Source: Gloeobacter violaceus PCC 7421 (GTDB taxonomy: Bacteria; Cyanobacteriota; Cyanobacteriia; Gloeobacterales; Gloeobacteraceae). From it: a stretch of 64,000 bases of DNA. Shown piece after piece: positions 4,275-16,760 of the stretch. Position 1 is the stretch's first letter; the number at the start of each line of letters is the position of its first letter. Where the stretch lies: NCBI RefSeq assembly GCF_000011385.1, contig NC_005125.1, positions 2,914,001 to 2,978,000 of the forward strand, read 5' to 3'. Below the pieces are notes generated by a model, which did not search any database, was not told the DNA's origin, and saw only the letters and a program-made list of their open reading frames with translations. The translations under genes and the position numbers were made by a program.

Positions 4275-4790
4275 ATGGACCTCAAAGACTACATCCGCAC
4301 CGTCCCCGATTTTCCCGAACCCGGCATTCTCTTTCGCGACATCACCACGCTGCTGCACGAACCCAAGGCCCTGCGCTACACCATCGACAGTCTGGCGGAA
4401 CAGACTGGCTCCCTCGGTGCCGATTATGTCGTGGGCATCGAATCGCGGGGGTTCATGTTCGGTACGCCTCTGGCGATCAAACTGGACTGCGGCTTCGTGC
4501 CGGTGCGCAAACCCGGCAAGTTGCCGGCGGCAGTATTTAAAGAGGAATACACCCTCGAATACGGCAAGAACGCCCTCGAAATCCACCAGGACGCCTTTGC
4601 GGCCCCCAGCCGCGTGCTGGTGGTCGACGATTTGCTGGCCACCGGCGGGACCGCCGTCGCCGCCGCCCAACTGGTCGAGCGGGCCGGGGGTACAGTTGTG
4701 GGATTCGGATTTATCATAGAGCTAACCTTTCTCAATGGGCGCGCGAAACTGCCGGAGGGTCCTTCGGCAGTTGCTTTGGTCTCTTATTAA
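4275..4790 (+). CDS. apt: Adenine phosphoribosyltransferase
   Basis: Apt converts adenine and PRPP to AMP in cytosolic purine salvage. The 171-aa product starts [20 protein letters not shown] at ATG 4275, which matches where the family usually begins; a GTG nine bases earlier is possible but less likely. The PRPP-binding motif [14 protein letters not shown] is intact, and [10 protein letters not shown] is the family's flexible-loop region. Length is normal. The rel gene begins 25 bp after the stop, so the two may share a transcript; both handle purine nucleotides. Confidence 0.95.
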
Positions 4791-4815
4791 TGTGAGAAAA
4801 GGGGTGGTGGGCGGT

Positions 4816-7068
4816 ATGCATCTGGTCTCAGCCGAGTTCGAAACGCTCCAGCTTCCTGACTGGCTCAAAGATTGCCTGGATCATCCGCACGGCACCCAGG
4901 AGTGGACCACCGCCAACAGCGAGACGAGCCTGACCACACCGCGCACCGTGAGCCTCGATCGCGGCCTGATCGCCCGCGCCTTCGACTTTGCCTATCGCCT
5001 GCACACCGGTCAAAACCGCGCCTCGGGCGAACCTTATATCCTCCACCCGGTGCAGGTGGCGGGGATGCTGCGCGAATTGGGTTCCGACAGCGCGATGGTG
5101 GCGGCGGGTTTTTTGCACGACATCATCGAGGATACCGCCACCACCTCCGAAGACCTCGAACAGCTTTTCGGCGAACAGGTGCGGCTCCTGGTCGAAGGAG
5201 TGACCAAGCTCTCAAAATTTACCTTCGACAGCAAAGAAGAGCGCCAGGCCGAGAATTTCCGGCGCATGTTTTTGGCGATGGCCCAGGATATCCGCGTCAT
5301 CGTCGTCAAGCTCGCCGACCGCCTGCACAACATGCGGACGCTCGATTTTCTGCCCACCCACAAGCAGCGTCGCATCGCCCAGGAGACGATGGACATCTTC
5401 GCGCCCCTGGCTAACCGCCTGGGTATCTGGCGCTTTAAGTGGGAACTCGAAGACCTCGCGTTCAAGTACCTCGATCCCGACGCCTATCGCCACATGCAGA
5501 AGCTCGTCTCCCAGAAGCGGGCCGAGCGCGAGCAATTTATCGATCAAGTCGTGCAGACCATCCGTGCCGAGATCGACCGCCAGCACATTCATGGCGAGAT
5601 CACCGGTCGGCCGAAGCATCTGTGGGGCATTTACCAGAAGATGCAGCGCCAACAAAAAGAATTTCACGAAATTTATGATGTCTCGGCGGTGCGGATCATC
5701 GTCGAGCAGCAAGAGGAATGTTACCGGGCGCTGTCGATCGTCCATAACAAATTCCGCCCGATCCCCGGTCGCTTCAAAGATTACATCGGCCTGCCCAAAC
5801 CAAACCGCTACCAGTCGCTGCACACGGCGGTGGTCGGCCCCGAGGGCAAGCCCCTCGAAGTGCAGATCCGCACGGTGGACATGCACCGCATCGCTGAGTA
5901 CGGTATTGCCGCCCACTGGAAATACAAGGAGGCTGGCTCGGTAGTGGTAGCGAGCCAGGAAGAAAAATTTACCTGGCTCAGGCAACTGCTCGACTGGCAG
6001 AGCGATCTCAAAGACGCGGGCGAATACCTGGAGACGATCAAAGAAGATCTCTTCTATTCAGAAGTCTACGTCTTCACCCCAAAAGGCGATGTGGTCGAAC
6101 TGCCGCGCGGCGGTACCCCCGTCGATTTTGCCTACCGTATCCACACCGAGGTGGGCAACCGCTGCGTGGGTGCTAAAGTCAACGACCGGATGGTGCCGCT
6201 CGATTCGCAACTCAAAAATGGCGACATCGTCGAGATTCTCACGTCCAAAAATTCCCACCCGAGCCTCGACTGGATCAATTTCGTCGTTACTTCTTCGGCC
6301 AAAAACCGCATCCGCCAGTGGTTCAAGCGCTCCACCCGCGAGCAGAACATCGAGCAGGGCCGCGACATGCTCGCCCGCGAACTGGGCAAGGGCAATCTCG
6401 AGAACCTGCTCAAATCCGACCGCATGCTCAAAGTCGCCCAAAGACTCAATTTCACCACCGTCGAGGATTTGCTCGCCGCCCTCGGGTACGGCGAGGTGAC
6501 GCAGGCCAGCGTGCTCAACAAGCTCCAGGAGAGCACCCCGACCTCCACCCCGGCCGAAATGGTCGAACTGCCCACCCAGAAGAGCGCCGGGATGCCCACC
6601 CCGAGCGACAAACCGATCCTGGGCATCGAGGGGATACCCTACCATTTGGCCAAGTGTTGCAACCCGCTGCCCGGTGAACCGATCATCGGCGTCGTCACCC
6701 GCATCAACCGCAGCATCAGCATCCACCACCACGGTTGCCCGAACGCCACCAAAGTCGACCCCGACCAGTTGATTCCCGTTTCCTGGAACCGCAGCTATAC
6801 CCAGCCGGGCCGCCCCCACACCTACCCGGTCGAGATCCAGGTAGAAGTGATCGACCGCATCGGTATGCTCAAGGATCTGCTCGATCGCCTCGCCAGCGAG
6901 CGCATCAACGTGCGCGACGCCCGGGTGAGCACCTACCCCAATTCGACGGCGATCGTAGACCTCAAAATCGACATCACCGGCAAGCAGCAACTCGATCAAG
7001 TCGCCGCCCAGATGGGCAAGATGGCCGACGTGCTCACCGTGCGCTGCCGCCACCGCCACCGGGAATAA
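4816..7068 (+). CDS. rel: Bifunctional (p)ppGpp synthetase/hydrolase (RelA/SpoT family)
   Basis: This enzyme makes and degrades the alarmone (p)ppGpp. From ATG 4816 the product is 750 aa; upstream in-frame starts (for example GTG 4792) cannot be excluded. Domains in order are an HD hydrolase domain with FLHDIIEDT (His101-Asp102), a synthetase domain with RFKDYIGLPKPNRYQSLHT near residue 320, a TGS domain near 415 (VYVFTPKGDVVELPRG), a Cys/His-containing zinc-finger-like segment (AKCCNPLPG) near 615, and a C-terminal ACT domain (about 675-750). Both catalytic halves keep their key residues, so dual activity is expected. It follows apt closely. Confidence 0.95.
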   Translation: MHLVSAEFETLQLPDWLKDCLDHPHGTQEWTTANSETSLTTPRTVSLDRGLIARAFDFAYRLHTGQNRASGEPYILHPVQVAGMLRELGSDSAMVAAGFLHDIIEDTATTSEDLEQLFGEQVRLLVEGVTKLSKFTFDSKEERQAENFRRMFLAMAQDIRVIVVKLADRLHNMRTLDFLPTHKQRRIAQETMDIFAPLANRLGIWRFKWELEDLAFKYLDPDAYRHMQKLVSQKRAEREQFIDQVVQTIRAEIDRQHIHGEITGRPKHLWGIYQKMQRQQKEFHEIYDVSAVRIIVEQQEECYRALSIVHNKFRPIPGRFKDYIGLPKPNRYQSLHTAVVGPEGKPLEVQIRTVDMHRIAEYGIAAHWKYKEAGSVVVASQEEKFTWLRQLLDWQSDLKDAGEYLETIKEDLFYSEVYVFTPKGDVVELPRGGTPVDFAYRIHTEVGNRCVGAKVNDRMVPLDSQLKNGDIVEILTSKNSHPSLDWINFVVTSSAKNRIRQWFKRSTREQNIEQGRDMLARELGKGNLENLLKSDRMLKVAQRLNFTTVEDLLAALGYGEVTQASVLNKLQESTPTSTPAEMVELPTQKSAGMPTPSDKPILGIEGIPYHLAKCCNPLPGEPIIGVVTRINRSISIHHHGCPNATKVDPDQLIPVSWNRSYTQPGRPHTYPVEIQVEVIDRIGMLKDLLDRLASERINVRDARVSTYPNSTAIVDLKIDITGKQQLDQVAAQMGKMADVLTVRCRHRHRE

Positions 7069-7185: not shown

Positions 7186-10100
7186 ATGTCCATGGTAAGA
7201 CGCGGGACCCGCAGCGATTCGAGTTCAATATCGTCTGCCAGCCAAGACAAGCAACAGGACCGGCACCACCCCGCGCACGGGTGCCTGTCCGGCGGTGGAG
7301 AGATGGGCGCGCTGATGCGGGCGAAGGACTGGTCGGCCTCGCCCCTCGAAGCGCCCGATCACTGGCCGCAGAGCCTCAAGACAGCCCTGCGCATCTTGCT
7401 CACGTCGCGCTACGCGATGTGGATGGGCTGGGGGGAGCCGCTCACTTTCTTCTACAACGATGCCTACCGCCCGACGTTGGGCATCAAGCATCCCTGGGCG
7501 CTCGGCCACCCCGCACAGCAAGTCTGGAAGGAAATCTGGCGCGATATCGCTCCGCGCATCGAAACCGTACTCAAGACGGGCGAAGCCACTTACGACGAGG
7601 CGCTGTTGTTGTTTTTGGAGCGCAGCGGCTTTCCGGAGGAGACCTATCACACGTTTTCCTATAGCCCGCTGGCCGACGAAGCCGGTGAGGTCGCCGGCAT
7701 GCTGTGCGTGGTCACCGAGGAGACCGAGCGCGTCATCGGCGAGCGCCGCATGGCGCTTTTGCGCGAGTTGGCCTCGGATCTGGCCGCGACGCAGACCCAG
7801 GAGGAAGTGTTCGCCGCCGTCCAGAGGCAGGTGGGCAAGTATTCAAAAGATCTGCCCTTTACGCTGATGTACCTGTTCGACAGCGACGCGGGCGGCCGGG
7901 CGCGGCTTGCGGCGGCCACGGGCATAGAAGCCAAACATCCGGGGGCGCGGCCGATCATCGACCCTGCAACCTACGGCGGACCCTGGTCGGCCCATAAGCT
8001 TTGGGAGGGAGCGCCGCCCATTTTACTGAACGATTTCGAGGGGCAATTGGGCGGGAATCCGCCGAGCGGAGGGTGGGACAAGCCGCCGCACCAGGTGAGC
8101 GTCGTCCCGATCAAAAGCCAGGGCCAGGAGCGGCCGGCCGGCTTTCTGGTCGCGGCACTCAATCCGTACCGCCGTTATGACGCCGAGTACGCAGGCTTTG
8201 TCGATCTTTTGACCGGTCAGATTGCCGCGGGTCTGGCCAATGCCCGGGCTTACGAGGCGGAGTGCCGCAGGGCCGAGGCGCTCGCCGAGATCGACCGCGC
8301 CAAGACCGTTTTTTTCTCCAACGTCAGCCACGAGTTCCGCACGCCGCTATCGCTGCTGCTTGGACCGCTGGAAGATGTGCTGGCCGGCGACGGTATTTCG
8401 GCACCGACGCGCGAACAATTGACCCTGGCCCAGCGCAACGGCAGGAGGCTCCTGAAGCTGGTCAATACGCTGTTGGATTTCAGCCGCATCGAGGCCGGCC
8501 GGATCCAGGCGAATTTTCTGCCCACCGACCTGGCCTCCCTCACGGCGCAACTGGTCTCGGTCTTCCGCTCGGCCGTCGAAAAGGCCGGTCTGCGCCTGGT
8601 GATCGACTGCCCGCCGCTCGCAGAAGCGGTCTATGTCGATCGCGACATGTGGGAGAAAATCGTCCTCAACCTGCTCTCGAACGCCTTCAAGTTCACCCTC
8701 CGGGGGCAAATCGCCGTCCGGCTGCGCCAGCAAACCGGTGAAGTGTGCCTGGAGCTCGAAGACACCGGGGTCGGCATTGCCGCCCACGAGTTGCCGCGCA
8801 TCTTCGATCGCTTTCATCGGGTGGCGGGGGTGGCGGGGCGCTCCCACGAAGGTTCCGGCATCGGTTTGGCCCTGGTGGCCGAACTGGTCGAGATCCACGG
8901 CGGCAAGGTTTCGGTGCAAAGCGTTTCGGGCCGGGGCAGCACCTTCACCGTGCGGTTGCCCACCGGAACGGCCCACCTGCCTGCCGATCGCATTGGGGTG
9001 GCCCCAGGGCTCGCTTCCACCGCCGTCGCTGCCGACATCTTCGCCGATGAGGCAGCGCAGTGGACCAGCGGATGGCACGAAGAATGGCTCCCGCCACCTC
9101 CGAATCTTGCCCCGGACGCAGAGCAGCGAGCCCCCGACACTCCCCGTCCGTGCGTCCTGGTGGTCGATGACAACGCCGACATGCGGGCGTACATCGCGAA
9201 CTTGCTTAAAGCTCACTACGAGGTCGTTCTGGCCGGCGACGGCGTCGAGGCGCTGGCCGCTGTCGAGCGCCGGATGCCGGATCTGGTGCTCACCGATGTG
9301 ATGATGCCCCGGCTCGACGGCTTCGGTCTGCTGGCCGCTTTGCGGACGGACGAGCGCACCCGCGCACTGCCGGTGATTGTCCTGTCGGCACGGGCCGGGG
9401 AGGAGGCCACGCTCGCGGGCCTGGAAAGGGGAGCGGACGATTATCTGAGCAAACCGTTTGCCGCTCGGGAATTGTTGGGGCGGGTGAAGGCCAATCTGGA
9501 ACTTTCGCGATTGCGCGGAGAGACTGCCCGCCTGTTGCACGCCTCCGAGGAGCGCGCCCGCTTGGCCATCCGGGTAGGAAGGCTCGGGACCTGGCGCTTC
9601 GTTCCGACAAGCGGCGTGGCCACCATGGACGAGCGGATGCGCGAAATCTGGGGCGAGCCGGAGGATACTTTCCAACTATCCCTGGCGCAGGCGATGGAGC
9701 GCATCCACCCGGCCGACCGGGAGCGCGTGTCCCAGGCGGTCGACGCGGCGCTCGATCCGGCCTCGGCGGGCACCCTCGAAATCGACTACCGCATCGTCTG
9801 GCCCAACGGAAGCGAGCGCTGGGTCTCAGCCAACGGGCAGGTGTTCTTTGAGCAGACAGAAGCGGGGAGCAGGCGGGCGGTCGATTTTATCGGCACCGCC
9901 CTGGATATCACCGAACGCAAGCGCATCGAGCAGGCGCTCGCCGGGAGCGAACAGCGCTACCGCCTGCTGGCCGAGTCGATCCCGCAGCTGGTGTGGACGG
10001 CCGATGTCGGCGGGACGCTTTTGGATGTCAACGGGCGGTGGTCCCAGTACACCGGGTTCACCCTCGAACAGGTCAAAAAGTCCGGTTGGGAGTCGGTGGT

Positions 10101-11076
10101 GCATCCGGAGGACGTGCCGGGTTTGCGGCGGCAATGGACAGCGGCGATCAAAGCCGTCGCCGCCTATCGGGCCGAGGGACGCATGCGGCGCACGGACGGA
10201 ACTTACCGCTGGCACCTCCACCAGGCCATGCCGTTAATGGACGGGGAGGGCCGCATTCTCAAGTGGTTCGGCACGGCGACCGACATCGAGGAGCGCAAGC
10301 AGCTGGAGGCTGAGCGCGAACAACTGCTCGAGCGCGCCGAGCAGGCCCGGGAGGCGGCCGAAGCCGCCAACCGCACCAAAGACGAATTTTTGGCCATCCT
10401 CGGGCACGAGTTGCGCACGCCGCTCAATCCGATCATCGGCTGGACCCAGATGCTCCGGCGCGGGAAGGTCGGCCCGGACAAACACGATCAGGCCCTGGAG
10501 ATCATCGAGCGCAATGCCCGGCTGCAGACGCAACTGATCGACGACCTGCTCGATGTTTCGCGGATCATGCGCGGTTCCTTGCGCATTGCCCCCCAGCCCA
10601 TAACGCTGGCCGCCATCGTTGTTTGCGCCCTCGAAGCGGTGCGTGGACTGGCAGAACAAAAACAAGTGCAGCTATTCGAACAGCTGCGGACGACAGCCCC
10701 GCTCAGCGCCGATCCGACCCGCCTGCAGCAGGTGGTGTGGAACCTACTCACCAATGCCGTCAAGTTCACCCCGGCCGGAGGACAGGTTCAGGTACGGCTG
10801 GAGTCGGGCGGGGGGATGGCCCGGCTCACCATCAGCGATACCGGCGTGGGCATCCCCGCCGAATTTTTGCCGCACCTGTTCGAGCGTTTCCGGCAGGCGG
10901 ATACCAAGAGCACGCGCGAACAAAAAGGTTTGGGGTTGGGCCTGTTCATCGTACGCCACATCGTCGAAGCCCACGGCGGCACGGTGCAGGCCGAGAGCGA
11001 AGGCGAAGGCAAAGGAGCCGCTTTCACCGTCGTGCTGCCCCTTGGGGGCGAGGCCCAGCGGCAAGCCAAGCCGTGA
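7186..11076 (+). CDS. Hybrid sensor histidine kinase with two kinase modules and an internal receiver
   Basis: This is a 1296-aa soluble sensor. Domains in order are a PAS-like N-terminal sensor (about 45-180), a GAF domain (about 190-350), HisKA with HVSHEFRTPLS (His382), a first HATPase (about 480-610), a receiver with LTDVMMPRLDG (Asp704), two PAS/PAC domains (about 790-1035), a second HisKA with GHELRTPLNP (His1074), and a second HATPase (about 1180-1290). No membrane segment is seen, so it should sense a cytosolic signal. No response-regulator gene is adjacent. The start at 7186 (or ATG 7192) is uncertain; the first 40 residues are low-complexity and the real start may be nearer 7300. 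Two complete kinase modules around one receiver suggest an internal phosphorelay. Confidence 0.9.
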   Translation: MSMVRRGTRSDSSSISSASQDKQQDRHHPAHGCLSGGGEMGALMRAKDWSASPLEAPDHWPQSLKTALRILLTSRYAMWMGWGEPLTFFYNDAYRPTLGIKHPWALGHPAQQVWKEIWRDIAPRIETVLKTGEATYDEALLLFLERSGFPEETYHTFSYSPLADEAGEVAGMLCVVTEETERVIGERRMALLRELASDLAATQTQEEVFAAVQRQVGKYSKDLPFTLMYLFDSDAGGRARLAAATGIEAKHPGARPIIDPATYGGPWSAHKLWEGAPPILLNDFEGQLGGNPPSGGWDKPPHQVSVVPIKSQGQERPAGFLVAALNPYRRYDAEYAGFVDLLTGQIAAGLANARAYEAECRRAEALAEIDRAKTVFFSNVSHEFRTPLSLLLGPLEDVLAGDGISAPTREQLTLAQRNGRRLLKLVNTLLDFSRIEAGRIQANFLPTDLASLTAQLVSVFRSAVEKAGLRLVIDCPPLAEAVYVDRDMWEKIVLNLLSNAFKFTLRGQIAVRLRQQTGEVCLELEDTGVGIAAHELPRIFDRFHRVAGVAGRSHEGSGIGLALVAELVEIHGGKVSVQSVSGRGSTFTVRLPTGTAHLPADRIGVAPGLASTAVAADIFADEAAQWTSGWHEEWLPPPPNLAPDAEQRAPDTPRPCVLVVDDNADMRAYIANLLKAHYEVVLAGDGVEALAAVERRMPDLVLTDVMMPRLDGFGLLAALRTDERTRALPVIVLSARAGEEATLAGLERGADDYLSKPFAARELLGRVKANLELSRLRGETARLLHASEERARLAIRVGRLGTWRFVPTSGVATMDERMREIWGEPEDTFQLSLAQAMERIHPADRERVSQAVDAALDPASAGTLEIDYRIVWPNGSERWVSANGQVFFEQTEAGSRRAVDFIGTALDITERKRIEQALAGSEQRYRLLAESIPQLVWTADVGGTLLDVNGRWSQYTGFTLEQVKKSGWESVVHPEDVPGLRRQWTAAIKAVAAYRAEGRMRRTDGTYRWHLHQAMPLMDGEGRILKWFGTATDIEERKQLEAEREQLLERAEQAREAAEAANRTKDEFLAILGHELRTPLNPIIGWTQMLRRGKVGPDKHDQALEIIERNARLQTQLIDDLLDVSRIMRGSLRIAPQPITLAAIVVCALEAVRGLAEQKQVQLFEQLRTTAPLSADPTRLQQVVWNLLTNAVKFTPAGGQVQVRLESGGGMARLTISDTGVGIPAEFLPHLFERFRQADTKSTREQKGLGLGLFIVRHIVEAHGGTVQAESEGEGKGAAFTVVLPLGGEAQRQAKP

Positions 11077-11442
11077 GCGGCACCGGTGGAAAGCGAAAGA
11101 CATGGCTTTTCTCACCATCGGCTTCCCTTGGCCGGATACTGCCTCTGTGGGTAATCCAGGGACGTATGGCTGCACGGATCTATGTCTATGGGCAGAAGCA
11201 TCGGCCGTACTCGTGGCAGAGATTGGAAGTCTCAAATCGGCCGTAGGATGGCGGAGCACAGGCGCGAGTGCTCGCCTCGTTTGCTGAATTTAGCCACTTA
11301 TGTCAATCGCTGTCGGGGGTCCGACGGCCGACTCTGCAGAACAAACGGTCCAACGGTGTGGACATCGGTGCCCGGCAGGACATCGGAGCGTTCCGCACTC
11401 CTGCCTAACGCCTCTCAATACCCAATTTCGAGGAAACCGACC
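11077..11442. other. Intergenic region, 366 bp, no gene seen
   Basis: Frames running through this stretch are continuations of shadows of the flanking genes. No tRNA, clear terminator or strong promoter pair was recognised. It must contain the leader of the membrane-protein gene at 11443. Confidence 0.5.
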
Positions 11443-12069
11443 ATGAGTTATGTTGACCAACCGGGTCCCGGTCGCGTGGTCCCTGCTCAGCCAGTGACCA
11501 CCCAGGTGATCGAGTATCACGACCGCGTACGCTGGGGGCCGATCGTCGCCGGCCTGGTGGTGGCCATCGGCACCCAATTGGTGCTCAGTTCGCTGGGCGC
11601 GGCCCTGGGATTGAGCGCCATCGCCACCTCGGACGCCCCCCGCTCCAGCAGCGACGACATCGGCAGTGCCATCGGCATCTGGACGATTTTGAGCCTGTTC
11701 GCTTCGCTGTTCGCCGGCGGCTGGGTGACTGCGCGCACCAGCGGTCCGATCACCCGCAACGGTGCATTGCTCAACGGCGCCATTCTCTGGGCCACGACTT
11801 TGGCTCTGGGATCGTATTTGCTCGCGAGCGGCGTCTCGGGAGCTTTGGGTGTGCTGGGCACCAACCCGGATCTCACCGACCGCGCAGGGCGCAACATCCC
11901 GAACCAACTGCCCAAAGTGAGTGCCGATCAGGCCCGCGACATCGCCGGCAATGCCGCGCGGGGCGGCTGGTCCTTTGCGATCGGCGCGCTGCTCGGCCTG
12001 GGAGCCGCCCTCGGCGGCGCCTTTGTCGGTTCGAAAGACAACCGTATCGTCGACGAACGTGGGCGTTGA
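11443..12069 (+). CDS. Multi-pass membrane protein of unknown function
   Basis: ATG 11443 was chosen because AGGA lies 9 bases upstream and the sequence from here (MSYVDQPGPGRVVPAQ...) is coherent; the longer frame upstream is not. The 208-aa product has a polar N-terminus and then about four hydrophobic segments: WGPIVAGLVVAIGTQLVL, an IWTILSLFASLFAGGW helix, LNGAILWATTLALGSYLL, and a C-terminal SFAIGALLGLGAALGGAF glycine-zipper helix. Such proteins recur near YsnF-like genes in bacteria. It is the first gene of the 11.4-15.8 kb cluster of probable stress or envelope proteins. The function is unknown. Confidence 0.75.
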   Translation: MSYVDQPGPGRVVPAQPVTTQVIEYHDRVRWGPIVAGLVVAIGTQLVLSSLGAALGLSAIATSDAPRSSSDDIGSAIGIWTILSLFASLFAGGWVTARTSGPITRNGALLNGAILWATTLALGSYLLASGVSGALGVLGTNPDLTDRAGRNIPNQLPKVSADQARDIAGNAARGGWSFAIGALLGLGAALGGAFVGSKDNRIVDERGR

Positions 12070-12781
12070 GCTTGACGGTCAAATCCCCGTCCCCAGACCT
12101 GATATCGAATCCGGATGAACAAGTCTGGCTGGGCGAAGGTTCCAGGTGTGAGGTGTCAGGATGCACTGCTGACACCTCACATCGTCTAAGCGTGACCATA
12201 CGAATGGAGCCGATGTGATACGTTCACCTGTGAACTTTGCAAGGACAGTCCGGAGAACTTGAATTCGTTCGTGAGGATTCCTGCACTCAGAGACGCTCGC
12301 ACAGATCCGCATGGAAGCGGCTTCGGCAGGGAAAGCAACAGTCTATCAAAACTGTAGCTACTGTTATTTCATCGGACTTGGAGACAACTCTTGATTGACA
12401 CTTCCCGCATGTCAAAATGTTTATCTATATATATCCACTCAAAATTTAACCGTGCATTCATCGGTTCGCTCTTGATGGAAATTGTCGAGCTTTATCGCTG
12501 ATAGAGATACGTGCGTCGGGCAGAACAAACAAGGAGGGCACAGGCGCAATTGTGTGCAGAGCGAACTATAGATATTTTTTGCTGTGCGAACATGCTCCGC
12601 CGATCGAGGTAAAGGGGTCGCTGCAAAGGCCATCCTAGGGAGGAGGTAAATAGCTGCACCTCAGTGCAAGACTGTTGTTCAGGATGAACTTTTCCCCTTG
12701 GTGCCCTCTTTTTTTGTGGCTTTGCCCACTGGATTGGTTGCATCCCTAAACATTTCGCCCACGACATTACGGAGTAAAAAC
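12070..12781. other. Intergenic region, 712 bp, partly AT-rich
   Basis: No protein family is recognisable in any frame. A perfect 12-bp inverted repeat lies at 12148-12180. The part from about 12330 to 12480 is clearly AT-richer than the surroundings (runs such as TATATATATCC) and may hold the promoter of the DUF2382 gene at 12782. No tRNA is seen. Confidence 0.5.
12148..12180. repeat. Perfect 12-bp inverted repeat (hairpin)
   Basis: GTGAGGTGTCAG (12148-12159) pairs with CTGACACCTCAC (12169-12180) around a 9-base loop. It lies about 80 bp after the membrane-protein stop. There is no T-run on either side, so it is not a standard terminator. A role as an mRNA 3' stabiliser or repeat-element remnant is possible. 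Confidence 0.6.
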
Positions 12782-13648
12782 ATGCAAAGTGCCAATCTGC
12801 CCCCAACCGCCAACGCAACGGTTGCCGGCTTGTTCAACGACCGCCGCAGTGCGGATGTGGCCGTTCGGGAGTTGCAGGCCGCCGGTTTTGCAGGCAATCA
12901 GATCGAGCAGTTTTTTGCGCCACAGGGCGCAAAAGCCAACGAAGGCGGCTTTTTTGATTCAATAGCCGGCTTTTTTGGGGACACTTCCGCACGCGGGAGT
13001 GTCCAGGCAGCGCCAAACGCCTACGATCGCTTAGTAGCAATGGGCCTCGATGCGGACGACGCCCAAGAACTTCAAGACCGCATTGAAGGCGGCGGTGTGC
13101 TCGTACTTCTGCGCGCCGGCAACAAGGCGATGGAGGCTCTTGAGGTTCTCAAGCGCAACGGTGCCTCCCCGGCCCAGTTGGACCTGCAGGGCGACACCGC
13201 CCCCGTACCCGACGCGAAGCGTCAGGCCGTTGACACGACTACCGAGGCGCCTCAGCGCATTCAACTGCTCAAGGAAGTGCTGCGCGTCAACAAAGAGCGC
13301 GTGAAGAGCGGCGAAATCCGCCTGCGCAAGGAAGTCGTCTCCGAAACGCAAACAGTCGAGGTGCCACTCATGCACGAGGAAGTCGTCATTGAGCGCCGCA
13401 CGGTTACGGATGGGGAAGCGGCCGTCGGCGAAATCGGCTCTGGTGAGACCATCCGGGTGCCCGTCAGCGAGGAGCGGGTCATCGTCGACAAGCGCGCCGT
13501 GGTTTCTGAGGAAGTCACCGTCGGCAAGCGCGATGTCCAGGAAACCGAGCAGGTCACCGATACCGTCCGGCACGAAGAGCTGCGCACGGACACCGAGGGT
13601 GAGGTAATTATGGACAGCGAAAAACGGCGTGTTCCCCCTGCCAAATAA
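12782..13648 (+). CDS. YsnF/AvaK-type DUF2382 stress protein, soluble form
   Basis: From ATG 12782 (GGAG about 8 bases upstream) the product is 288 aa. The N-terminal 35 residues (TVAGLFNDRRSADVAVREL) form the fold seen in general-stress-protein-17M-like domains. The C-terminal half (about 165-280) is a DUF2382 domain: charged strands with repeated 'VPLMHEEVVIERR', 'VPVSEERVIVDKR' and 'VTDTVRHEELR' units. There is no membrane helix. The next gene is a paralogue with the same two domains but a glycine-rich hydrophobic insert. Known family members are stress- or desiccation-induced; the biochemical role is unknown. Confidence 0.85.
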   Translation: MQSANLPPTANATVAGLFNDRRSADVAVRELQAAGFAGNQIEQFFAPQGAKANEGGFFDSIAGFFGDTSARGSVQAAPNAYDRLVAMGLDADDAQELQDRIEGGGVLVLLRAGNKAMEALEVLKRNGASPAQLDLQGDTAPVPDAKRQAVDTTTEAPQRIQLLKEVLRVNKERVKSGEIRLRKEVVSETQTVEVPLMHEEVVIERRTVTDGEAAVGEIGSGETIRVPVSEERVIVDKRAVVSEEVTVGKRDVQETEQVTDTVRHEELRTDTEGEVIMDSEKRRVPPAK

Positions 13649-13659
13649 CCCTATGCATC

Positions 13660-13685
13660 AAGACCGCGCCTCTTGGCGCGGTCTT
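13660..13685 (+). terminator. Strong hairpin after DUF2382 gene
   Basis: AAGACCGCGCC (13660-13670), loop TCTT, GGCGCGGTCTT (13675-13685): a perfect 11-bp stem and tetraloop 12 bp after the stop. There is no T-run, so termination may be weak or factor-assisted, allowing read-through into the paralogue. Confidence 0.55.
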
Positions 13686-13773
13686 GAACCGTAGACGCTG
13701 TAGGCAGCAGCAGGCACAGCGGAGGCCCTTCGCCCGGCGACTCGCTGCTGTTCTACGCATAATCGAGAAGAAA

Positions 13774-14805
13774 ATGACTTCGTTGGAAGATCATGAAGCA
13801 GCGAAAAGCTACGGCGATGTCCAACTGCCGTCGTCGCAAGCGGTGGGTCAGCGGCTTATTGCCGGCTTGTTCGCCAAGCGCGAAGCCGCCGAACAGGCAG
13901 TCAGAGATTTGCAAGAAGCCGGCTTTGGCGAGGAGCAGATCGGTGTGGCGTTTCCTGGTGAGTCGGCCGCGTCGGATTCTAAGCAATTTCAGGATCTGCC
14001 CACAGTCACGGCCACAGGTGGCGCGGTCGGCGGCGGTGTGTTGGGTGGATTGTTGGGACTGCTTGCCGGTATCGGTGTTCTGAGTGTGCCGGGGGTCGGT
14101 CCGATGGTCGCCGGAGGTTTGCTGGCCTCCGTGTTTGCCGGGTTGGGTCTTGGAGCGGCCGGCGGCAGTTTGTTGGGCGCTTTGGTCGGCACCGGTTTTT
14201 CGGAGGCGGAAGCGCAACACTTGGAGAGCGGTGTACGCTCCGGAGCTTCACTGGTGACGATACGCTCCGGCGGCAGGGTTCTAGAAGCACTTGCCATTCT
14301 TGAGAGAAACGGCGCGGATACGGGGCCGAGAGCAGTATCGCAGCCACCGTTGCCCTTTTCTGCTGCAGAAGCCCCCTTCATCGAGACCGATTCACCGAAG
14401 CAGGAGCGCTTGGAGCTGCTTACAGAACGGGCTTTTATCCGCAAGGAGAGAGTTTATTTAGGCGAGATTACGGTGCGCAAGGAGACGATTACAGAGCTCA
14501 GGACCATTGAGGTTCCCGTCACGCGGGAGGAGCTGGTGGTTGAGCGCCGTCCTACGACCGAATCGGGTGCGGTGGCGCCGGTGGAGGAGGTGGTACGGAT
14601 TGTCCTGAGCGAGGAGCAAGTCTCCTATCAGACTAGAAAAGTCCTCAAAGAAGCAGTCTCGATTGAGTGGCACACCACCATCGAGAAGAAGCAGATTGAG
14701 GTGACTCTGCAGCGTGAAGAACTGCGATTCGATGTCGAAGGTAAAGCGCGGGTCGGTACCGTTGACATTCCTGAAGCCGGCGAAGTGGATTCTGCTTCAG
14801 TCTAG
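13774..14805 (+). CDS. DUF2382 (YsnF-like) protein with membrane-inserting glycine-zipper region
   Basis: From ATG 13774 (GAGAAGAAA just upstream) the product is 343 aa. Its N-terminal LIAGLFAKREAAEQAVRDL matches the start of the preceding protein. Residues about 80-140 are a Gly/Leu/Val-rich hydrophobic block (GGGVLGGLLGLLAGIGVL, then VAGGLLASVFAGLGLGAAGG), likely one or two membrane helices with glycine zippers. The C-terminal DUF2382 part carries VPVTREELVVERRP and LQREELRFDVEGKA. The pair looks like a tandem duplication in which one copy is membrane-bound and the other soluble. General stress or envelope function is inferred. Confidence 0.85.
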   Translation: MTSLEDHEAAKSYGDVQLPSSQAVGQRLIAGLFAKREAAEQAVRDLQEAGFGEEQIGVAFPGESAASDSKQFQDLPTVTATGGAVGGGVLGGLLGLLAGIGVLSVPGVGPMVAGGLLASVFAGLGLGAAGGSLLGALVGTGFSEAEAQHLESGVRSGASLVTIRSGGRVLEALAILERNGADTGPRAVSQPPLPFSAAEAPFIETDSPKQERLELLTERAFIRKERVYLGEITVRKETITELRTIEVPVTREELVVERRPTTESGAVAPVEEVVRIVLSEEQVSYQTRKVLKEAVSIEWHTTIEKKQIEVTLQREELRFDVEGKARVGTVDIPEAGEVDSASV

Positions 14806-14988
14806 TCTGCCGCCGATTAGCAGCCTGGGAAACGCGTCTCAAGCGGTTTTCGCGGCTTGGAACCACCAAGGGCCCCTCAAGATATGTCCTGGGACATGCC
14901 TTGGCTCTTTCCAAGGAAGTGTGTGATTGACTCCGTGGTTGCCTATTCTCGATGTGAAAGTAGATCAGCAAGGAGCAACAATATCTGT

Positions 14989-15384
14989 ATGGAAAGTCAG
15001 GAAATGTCCGTCGACGGCAACCCTTCTCTGTCCAACCCCGACAGTGGTGAAGGCAGCGCTGTGGTTGACAATGCGGAGCAAAGCAAGGATAGTAGGCAAT
15101 CGCAGGCGAAAGAGAAACTTGATGGTGCGCTCAACGATACTTCGGATAAGCTCCGCAATCTGGCCCAGAAGGTTGAAGACTACGGCCGTGGGGCAAGTGA
15201 AAACGTGGGACAAGCCACCGAGAAAGTCTCCGAGCAGCTTAACCGCGGTGCGCAAGCGCTTCAAGGGACCAGCGTCGATAGGCTCCTGGAACAGTTTCAG
15301 GATGTCATTAAACGCCAACCCCTTACAAGTATCGGTATCGCACTCGGCGTCGGTTATTTCCTCTCCCGCATCGCAAAAAGGTAA
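14989..15384 (+). CDS. YqjD-like protein with C-terminal membrane anchor
   Basis: ATG 14989 is preceded by AAGGAG at a 13-base spacing; ATG 15004 in the same frame is an alternative. The 131-aa product is hydrophilic and helical (KLRNLAQKVEDYGRGASENV) and ends with QPLTSIGIALGVGYFLSRI, a glycine-containing anchor followed by basic residues. That is the layout of the YqjD/ElaB family of inner-membrane, stress-induced helical proteins. It lies between the DUF2382 pair and another small membrane protein and is probably expressed with them. Confidence 0.75.
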   Translation: MESQEMSVDGNPSLSNPDSGEGSAVVDNAEQSKDSRQSQAKEKLDGALNDTSDKLRNLAQKVEDYGRGASENVGQATEKVSEQLNRGAQALQGTSVDRLLEQFQDVIKRQPLTSIGIALGVGYFLSRIAKR

Positions 15385-15428
15385 GTAAAGCATACGCCTG
15401 CTTGCAACGCACGAAGGTCGGTAACGAA

Positions 15429-15509
15429 ATGCAGCATCAAAAAGCCAAGCAAGATCGTATGTTCTCAAAACCGGAAATGCCGGCAGACAGTTCACAAACA
15501 CCGGCATAA
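15429..15509 (+). CDS. Possible 26-aa mini-ORF
   Basis: ATG 15429 to TAA 15507-15509 encodes a short polar peptide (MQHQKAKQDRMFSKPEMPAD...) in the gap between two genes of the stress cluster. There is no strong ribosome-binding site. It may be a real linker peptide or chance. Confidence 0.2.
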   Translation: MQHQKAKQDRMFSKPEMPADSSQTPA

Positions 15510-15535
15510 AAATCCAGCCGCAGTCGAGGAGAAAT

Positions 15536-15817
15536 ATGAACGTCAAGTCATGGATTTATCGTAACCCCTTGCAGTTCACGGGTATCGCCGTGGTTGCAGG
15601 TGTTTTAGCAGGTTTGGCTCTACCCGCGTGGCAACGCGAAGAGCGCGGACCATCCCCGTCGAGCGCGCGCACCAAGCAGCCGGAACGAGAGAAAGAATTA
15701 ATAGAAAAAACTGGCAAAAACACCCTTGTCGCCTCGGTGATGTCCAATCTAGCGACCCTGGCATTGCGCGAGGGTTCTAGATATGTGACTCGTCGCTTCT
15801 TCGGCAGTTCTCGGTAG
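15536..15817 (+). CDS. Small single-pass membrane protein
   Basis: ATG 15536 has an excellent site (GAGGAG 5 bases upstream). The 93-aa product begins MNVKSWIYRNPLQFTGIAVV and has one N-terminal membrane helix (FTGIAVVAGVLAGLALP), then a charged linker and a basic C-terminal helix ending RYVTRRFFGSSR. I do not recognise a named family; it resembles partner proteins encoded beside YqjD-like genes. It is the last gene of the cluster, before a strong terminator. Confidence 0.7.
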   Translation: MNVKSWIYRNPLQFTGIAVVAGVLAGLALPAWQREERGPSPSSARTKQPEREKELIEKTGKNTLVASVMSNLATLALREGSRYVTRRFFGSSR

Positions 15818-15851
15818 AACAGTAACCGAAAGACGCAAGCGATCCTTATCT

Positions 15852-15889
15852 GTACCCCGGCCTTCCTCCAAACGGCCGGGGTACCTTTT
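15852..15889 (+). terminator. Rho-independent terminator of stress cluster
   Basis: GTACCCCGGCC (15852-15862) pairs perfectly with GGCCGGGGTAC (15874-15884), then CTTTT. It ends the 11.4-15.8 kb plus-strand cluster. Confidence 0.85.
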
Positions 15890-15962
15890 CACGTGATGTC
15901 CGTTCGATTTTTGCTTTTAAGCTGAACGGTACGCACGGGCGAGAGTCTGACGGGCCGATGGT

Positions 15963-16760
15963 CTACGGTGCTTTCTCACTGCCCCCACCCGGGGTGGCGG
16001 CTTCGGCCGGGCGGCTCTCGTCGCGGGGGGTATTGCGCAATTGCACCGGCTGCGGTGCCGCTTTGCCGCGCAGGCGCAAATTAAGCATTTCCACCCCCAC
16101 CGAGAAGGCCATGGCGAAGTAGGTGTAGCCCTTGGGGATGTGCTGACCAAAGCCGTCGGCAAGCAAATTCACGCCGATGAGTACCAGGAAGGCGAGCGCC
16201 AGCATCTTGATGGTTGGATGTCGATCGACGAAGTCGCTGATAATGTTGACGAAGGCGAGCATAAAGAGCACTGCGACCACCACCGCGGCGATCATCACCT
16301 CCAGCCGCTCGGCCAGACCCACCGCCGTAATCACCGAGTCGAGGGAGAATACCAAATCGATGATCATGATCTGGATGAGCACCGAAGCATAGGAGGCGGC
16401 CGGACCCACCTTGGCGTGCTCCTCCTCCCCTTCGAGCTTGTTGTGAATTTCGAAGGTGGCTTTGCCGATGAGAAACAGACCGCCGCCGATGAGAATCAGG
16501 TCCCGCCCGGAAAATTCGAATCCCAATAGCCCGAACAACGGTTGGGTGAGGGTGGCAAGCCAGCTGATCGAGAAGAGCAACAGGATGCGCGAGCCGAGGG
16601 CCAGCAACAGACCGATTTGCCGGGCGGACGCCTGCTGCTCTTTGGGCAGCTTGCTCGCCAGAATCGAGATAAAGACGATGTTATCGATACCTAGAACAAT
16701 TTCCAGCACCGCCAGGGTGAGAAAACTGATCCACGTGTTCGGATCCGATAGCCATTCCAT
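15963..16760 (-). CDS. terC: TerC family integral membrane protein
   Basis: The 265-aa protein has seven or more hydrophobic segments. It begins MEWLSDPNTWISFLTLAVLE and has the family hallmark LEIVLGIDNIVFISIL, plus a second IDLVFSLDSVITAVGL. These Asp-containing membrane motifs are typical of TerC, linked to tellurite resistance and, in other organisms, to metal export to exoenzymes. The C-terminal tail is Pro/Ala-rich and cytosolic. It stands alone on the minus strand, downstream of the small probable psb30 gene. Confidence 0.9.
   Translation of the reverse strand: MEWLSDPNTWISFLTLAVLEIVLGIDNIVFISILASKLPKEQQASARQIGLLLALGSRILLLFSISWLATLTQPLFGLLGFEFSGRDLILIGGGLFLIGKATFEIHNKLEGEEEHAKVGPAASYASVLIQIMIIDLVFSLDSVITAVGLAERLEVMIAAVVVAVLFMLAFVNIISDFVDRHPTIKMLALAFLVLIGVNLLADGFGQHIPKGYTYFAMAFSVGVEMLNLRLRGKAAPQPVQLRNTPRDESRPAEAATPGGGSEKAP

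Follow-up and report, generated by a model that had tools for sequence, protein, structure and literature searches.

YsnF, a general stress protein of Bacillus subtilis (TIGR02271/PF09557), combines a YflT domain with a C-terminal DUF2382 domain. In cyanobacteria, DUF2382 is found in the akinete marker AvaK/Npun_F5452 and its neighbours, which are tandem PRC-barrel proteins; in Nostoc punctiforme, related AvaK genes are arranged in tandem and induced by stress (PMC7660261). In E. coli, YqjD, encoded in the yqjD–yqjE–yqjK operon, tethers ribosomes to the inner membrane (PMC10746276). Relatives of all three systems had been grouped by a first-pass annotation of Gloeobacter violaceus PCC 7421 into one stress/envelope cluster of five genes, none with a known biochemical role, a description that the YqjD precedent shows to be not quite accurate.

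Here, the window denotes the whole stretch of DNA analysed, 64,000 nucleotides in length (NC_005125.1, positions 2,914,001–2,978,000). All five open reading frames (g1–g5) are present on the plus strand. We compared the locus with the MAG Aphanocapsa lilacina HA4352-LM1 (G001, locus L111), which belongs to the same genus, and with the further Gloeobacter congeners G002 and G003. The features of the locus are as follows:

4735–7068, plus strand: rsh, a RelA/SpoT homologue (Pfam HD_4, RelA_SpoT, TGS, ACT)
7186–11076, plus strand: hybrid sensor histidine kinase, 1296 aa (Pfam GAF, PAS, two HisKA/HATPase, REC)
11443–12069, plus strand: g1, a 208-aa four-helix membrane protein with four hydrophobic segments by hydropathy
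12145–12183, plus strand: terminator-like hairpin 3′ of g1, 15-bp stem, z −3.65, with compensatory changes in G003
12782–13648, plus strand: g2, 288 aa, YflT-like domain and DUF2382 (YsnF architecture), no transmembrane segment
13658–13687, plus strand: hairpin between g2 and g3, 13-bp perfect stem, 4-nt loop, z −7.8, terminator-like without a U run
13774–14805, plus strand: g3, 343 aa, YflT interrupted by a glycine-zipper hydrophobic hairpin (approximately residues 80–135), then DUF2382
14865–15896, no strand: apparently strain-specific segment with g4 and g5, synteny with G001 and G003 broken on both sides
14989–15384, plus strand: g4, a 131-aa YqjD-like, tail-anchored helical protein
15536–15817, plus strand: g5, a 93-aa membrane protein with one transmembrane segment, a 5′-truncated homologue of the third gene of the trio described below
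15852–15884, plus strand: terminator-like hairpin 3′ of g5, 11-bp stem, z −2.5

An Rfam scan of positions 11000–16500 returned no match, and a consensus promoter scan returned a single match, the number expected by chance. A literature search for Gloeobacter stress transcriptomes yielded nothing usable, and no expression data for Gloeobacter violaceus were found.

The identification of g2 and g3 as DUF2382 paralogues was borne out. Their DUF2382 and TIGR02271 scores (106 and 157 bits for g2, 73 and 81 bits for g3) far exceed the respective cut-offs of 23 and 49.75 bits, and the genome has no further DUF2382 gene. The N-terminal domain of both is YflT-like (PF11181, cut-off 26.2 bits), with scores of 29.1 bits for g3, above the cut-off, and 23.3 bits for g2, slightly below it; in the genome search g3 scored 23.5 bits. 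No PRC-barrel match was found by Pfam in either protein, so the AvaK-type architecture does not apply. Hydropathy in the window strain agrees that g2 is soluble and that g3 carries a glycine-zipper membrane block, with hydrophobic segments at residues 85–103 and 111–129, inside the YflT domain, where g2 has an alignment gap. The assignment of g1, g3 and g5 to the membrane was likewise upheld by their hydrophobic segments, and the stress-protein connection by the YflT and DUF2382 families. Both paralogues resemble YsnF in a C-terminal DUF2382 domain and, less firmly, in a YflT-like N-terminal domain but, unlike YsnF, occur as two tandem copies, of which g3 adds the glycine-zipper hairpin within YflT. 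They share with the AvaK proteins DUF2382, a tandem arrangement and a cyanobacterial host, but differ from them in having a YflT-like domain in place of a PRC-barrel N-terminus and in forming a separate Gloeobacterales DUF2382 clade. The YflT–zipper module also stands alone in many cyanobacterial proteins of 190–260 aa, to which residues 26–181 of g3 align at approximately 37–46% identity; these proteins lack DUF2382, whereas g3 joins the module to it, as do proteins encoded by four or more further genomes of cyanobacteria (G027, G032, G040 and G046). Judged by their families, g2 and g3 are most likely general-stress, membrane-protective proteins of the YsnF type. A PDB profile search with g3/DUF2382 gave nothing significant, and lti46.2, considered as a DUF2382 relative, was rejected as a Dps homologue.

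In a tree of 50 DUF2382 domains, the ten Gloeobacterales sequences formed one group (100/100) that split into a g2 type and a g3 type. The second tandem copy of G008 grouped with the g3 type (96/74, not firm), a placement that suggests an ancient tandem duplication within Gloeobacterales as the origin of the pair. In G008, rsh (L108, from 7845) is preceded at a distance of a few kilobases by a YflT–DUF2382 gene and a YflT gene (L108 4265–5715). Tandem DUF2382 genes are common in other cyanobacteria, there with PRC-barrel N-termini, and with the Nostoc example this means that the tandem pair is not special to Gloeobacter violaceus. No evidence was found for the proposed relevance to an organism without thylakoids; the same families are widespread in other cyanobacteria. 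In crown tandem pairs (L116, L122, L130, L135, L141, L148, L150, L161, L170 and L171), the second protein in most cases has only approximately the first half of DUF2382, and seen from these pairs the domain resembles an internal two-fold repeat.

The five genes had been read as one unit closed by a strong terminator. The terminal hairpin is present, but those after g1 (z −3.65) and g2 (z −7.8) are stronger than that after g5 (z −2.5), with folding energies of −30 kcal/mol over 66 nt, −37 and −27, respectively; the region 3′ of g3 has no outstanding hairpin (z 0.36). The stem of the g1 hairpin is kept in G003 by paired changes (GTGAGG/CCTCAC to GTGGGG/CCCCAC), and a short T run is present there; in the window strain, the g1 and g2 hairpins have no good U runs. 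G001 retains the g2 hairpin, which is weak in G003, and g1 and g2 are spaced 712 bp apart. The hairpins after g1 and g2 argue that g1, g2 and g3(–g4–g5) are probably separate transcripts, with each hairpin a putative termination site. 

The congeners bear on the same question. G003 keeps both paralogues, and its g3 lacks a transmembrane segment owing to an in-frame deletion of approximately 246 bases (approximately residues 57–144); in G001, a MAG in which assembly error is possible, g2 is reduced to its last 30 residues and g3 carries a frame-breaking deletion; G002 carries a single DUF2382 gene. A run of five genes on one strand that closes with a hairpin, including a soluble g2 and a membrane-type g3 in the window strain, is what would be expected of a single envelope-stress operon whose DUF2382 paralogues split labour between cytoplasm and plasma membrane. 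However, the two stronger internal hairpins, the absence of g4–g5 from this locus in both close congeners and a G003 g3 without its membrane part make such an operon improbable, and a conserved division of labour fits neither the G001 remnant of g2 nor the single gene of G002.

Synteny separates the locus into two parts. G003 matches the window at 7.2–13.9 kb and 14.19–14.86 kb, and G001 matches the same block minus two internal deletions; homology to both ends at 14864, 59 bp past g3. The order rsh–histidine kinase–g1 is common to the window strain, G001 and G003 (loci L111 and L199), and these two closest congeners share only rsh–histidine kinase–g1–g2–g3, with g2 a mere remnant in G001. Past g3, G001 and G003 are alike, with a hairpin of their own and a gene and sequence different from those of the window; neither has g4–g5 at the locus. 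TerC and PutA, which adjoin g5 in the window, are approximately 400 kb from g3 in G003. By the end of synteny at 14864 and the distant position of TerC–PutA, positions 14865–15896, with g4 and g5, are specific to the window strain among the genomes compared. A search for repeats that would mark g4–g5 as a mobile insertion found none. In the G001 cluster (L091 6347–6640), one of the two internal deletions starts inside the g1 hairpin, reflecting either decay or MAG assembly error. Conservation of gene order, suggested earlier as a check, was thus partial: g1–g2–g3 is kept in G003 and as remnants in G001, but is split in G002, where g1, the single DUF2382 gene and the kinase are all apart from one another. 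The G002 arrangement, together with the differing subsets kept by the congeners, would suit a mere accumulation of separate stress genes, adjacent by chance and sharing general stress at most; we consider this less likely than not, as g1 and DUF2382 genes are linked above chance in distant cyanobacteria.

We favour, by a modest balance of probability, a composite neighbourhood, in which a genus-shared rsh–histidine kinase–g1–g2–g3 part, apparently old, is joined to a strain-specific g4–g5 remnant, and in which membrane stress protection is a putative function. The YqjD-like label of g4 is backed by gene order at two paralogous loci, but its match to DUF883_C (15.7 bits, E = 0.012) falls below the cut-off of 27, so it is labelled YqjD-like and, on its profile score, is not a DUF883 family member; its paralogue scored 20.4 bits. 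Homologues of g4 and g5 are paired at two other sites of this genome and in related genomes, approximately 530–545 bases apart where measured. Both sites in this genome hold intact trios (L085 3858–5024 and L084 3182–4570), in which a PF07332 (Phage_holin_3_6) gene (E = 4e-23 and 2e-23) lies between the g4 and g5 homologues; Pfam gave no match for the third gene. E. coli YqjE belongs to PF07332, and the position of this gene makes a yqjD–yqjE–third-gene trio, similar to the E. coli yqjD–yqjE–yqjK operon in that a PF07332 gene is enclosed by homologues of g4 and g5 at two loci of this genome. The window locus, unlike that operon, has no yqjE, a truncated g5 and a g4 below the DUF883 cut-off. 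A search of the 151-base g4–g5 gap found no yqjE match, the N-terminal third present in the homologues is missing from g5, and weak similarity in two frames just upstream of the g5 start (E = 0.29 when the piece is taken separately) may be the trace of a decayed 5′ end. The pair g4–g5 looks like the outer members of such a trio, a decayed copy that would have been left over after loss of yqjE; g4 may still serve as a YqjD-like, tail-anchored ribosome tether.

Profile searches found no Pfam, NCBIfam or PDB relative of g1, whose homologues form a cyanobacterial family with no Pfam or NCBIfam name. What is new here is that, in distant cyanobacteria, g1 is repeatedly found next to DUF2382 genes, and that it co-occurs with them. 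A DUF2382 gene lies within 10 kb at 13 of 79 g1 loci outside Gloeobacter, against 0.6 expected, and in a second genome set linkage was found in 4 of the 12 genomes with both genes, against 0.09 expected; both expectations were calculated from how many DUF2382 places each genome has. Ten of the 13 linked loci have a tandem DUF2382 pair upstream of g1 and on the other strand, and in nine of these ten the pair lies close to g1. DUF2382 is present in 16 of 21 genomes with g1 versus 6 of 38 without it (Fisher P = 6.6e-6), and the co-occurrence persists among genomes of at least 4 Mb outside Gloeobacter (P = 1.3e-3), although relatedness of the genomes, which are not independent, inflates the g1–DUF2382 statistics, and some contigs are short. 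Such linkage could indicate that g1 and DUF2382 form one conserved cyanobacterial module, in which g1 would partner or anchor YsnF/AvaK-type proteins at the membrane and g4–g5 would be bystanders. We regard this only as a tentative possibility, because 66 of the 79 g1 loci have no DUF2382 gene nearby, several genomes carry g1 without DUF2382, and g1 more often neighbours other genes, such as those for YbjQ and TPR proteins. A YbjQ-family gene in the same orientation directly precedes g1 at 23 of the 79 loci (for example, L163 9401–9733). It is similarly conjectural that g1 founds a four-helix membrane family acting with DUF2382 proteins across the deepest cyanobacterial split, despite their differing N-termini (YflT or PRC-barrel).

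Within the composite neighbourhood, stress induction of g2 and g3 would lead to membrane protection. The glycine-zipper hairpin in its YflT domain makes plasma-membrane insertion of g3 probable, and g1 may also be seated there; the DUF2382 and YflT domains of g2 and g3, which are charged and rich in beta structure, would oligomerise on the cytoplasmic face of the membrane. AlphaFold models of g1 (43 sequences, pLDDT 54) and g3 (14 sequences, pLDDT 48) were of low confidence, so no fold backs this mechanism. Together, these comparisons remove a false operon and a false division of labour from the account of this locus and explain g4–g5 as a probable decayed copy of a known operon type. The remainder is mostly ordinary, and the part worth following is the tie between g1 and DUF2382: g1 could turn out to be the first membrane partner of DUF2382, a widespread domain of unknown function.
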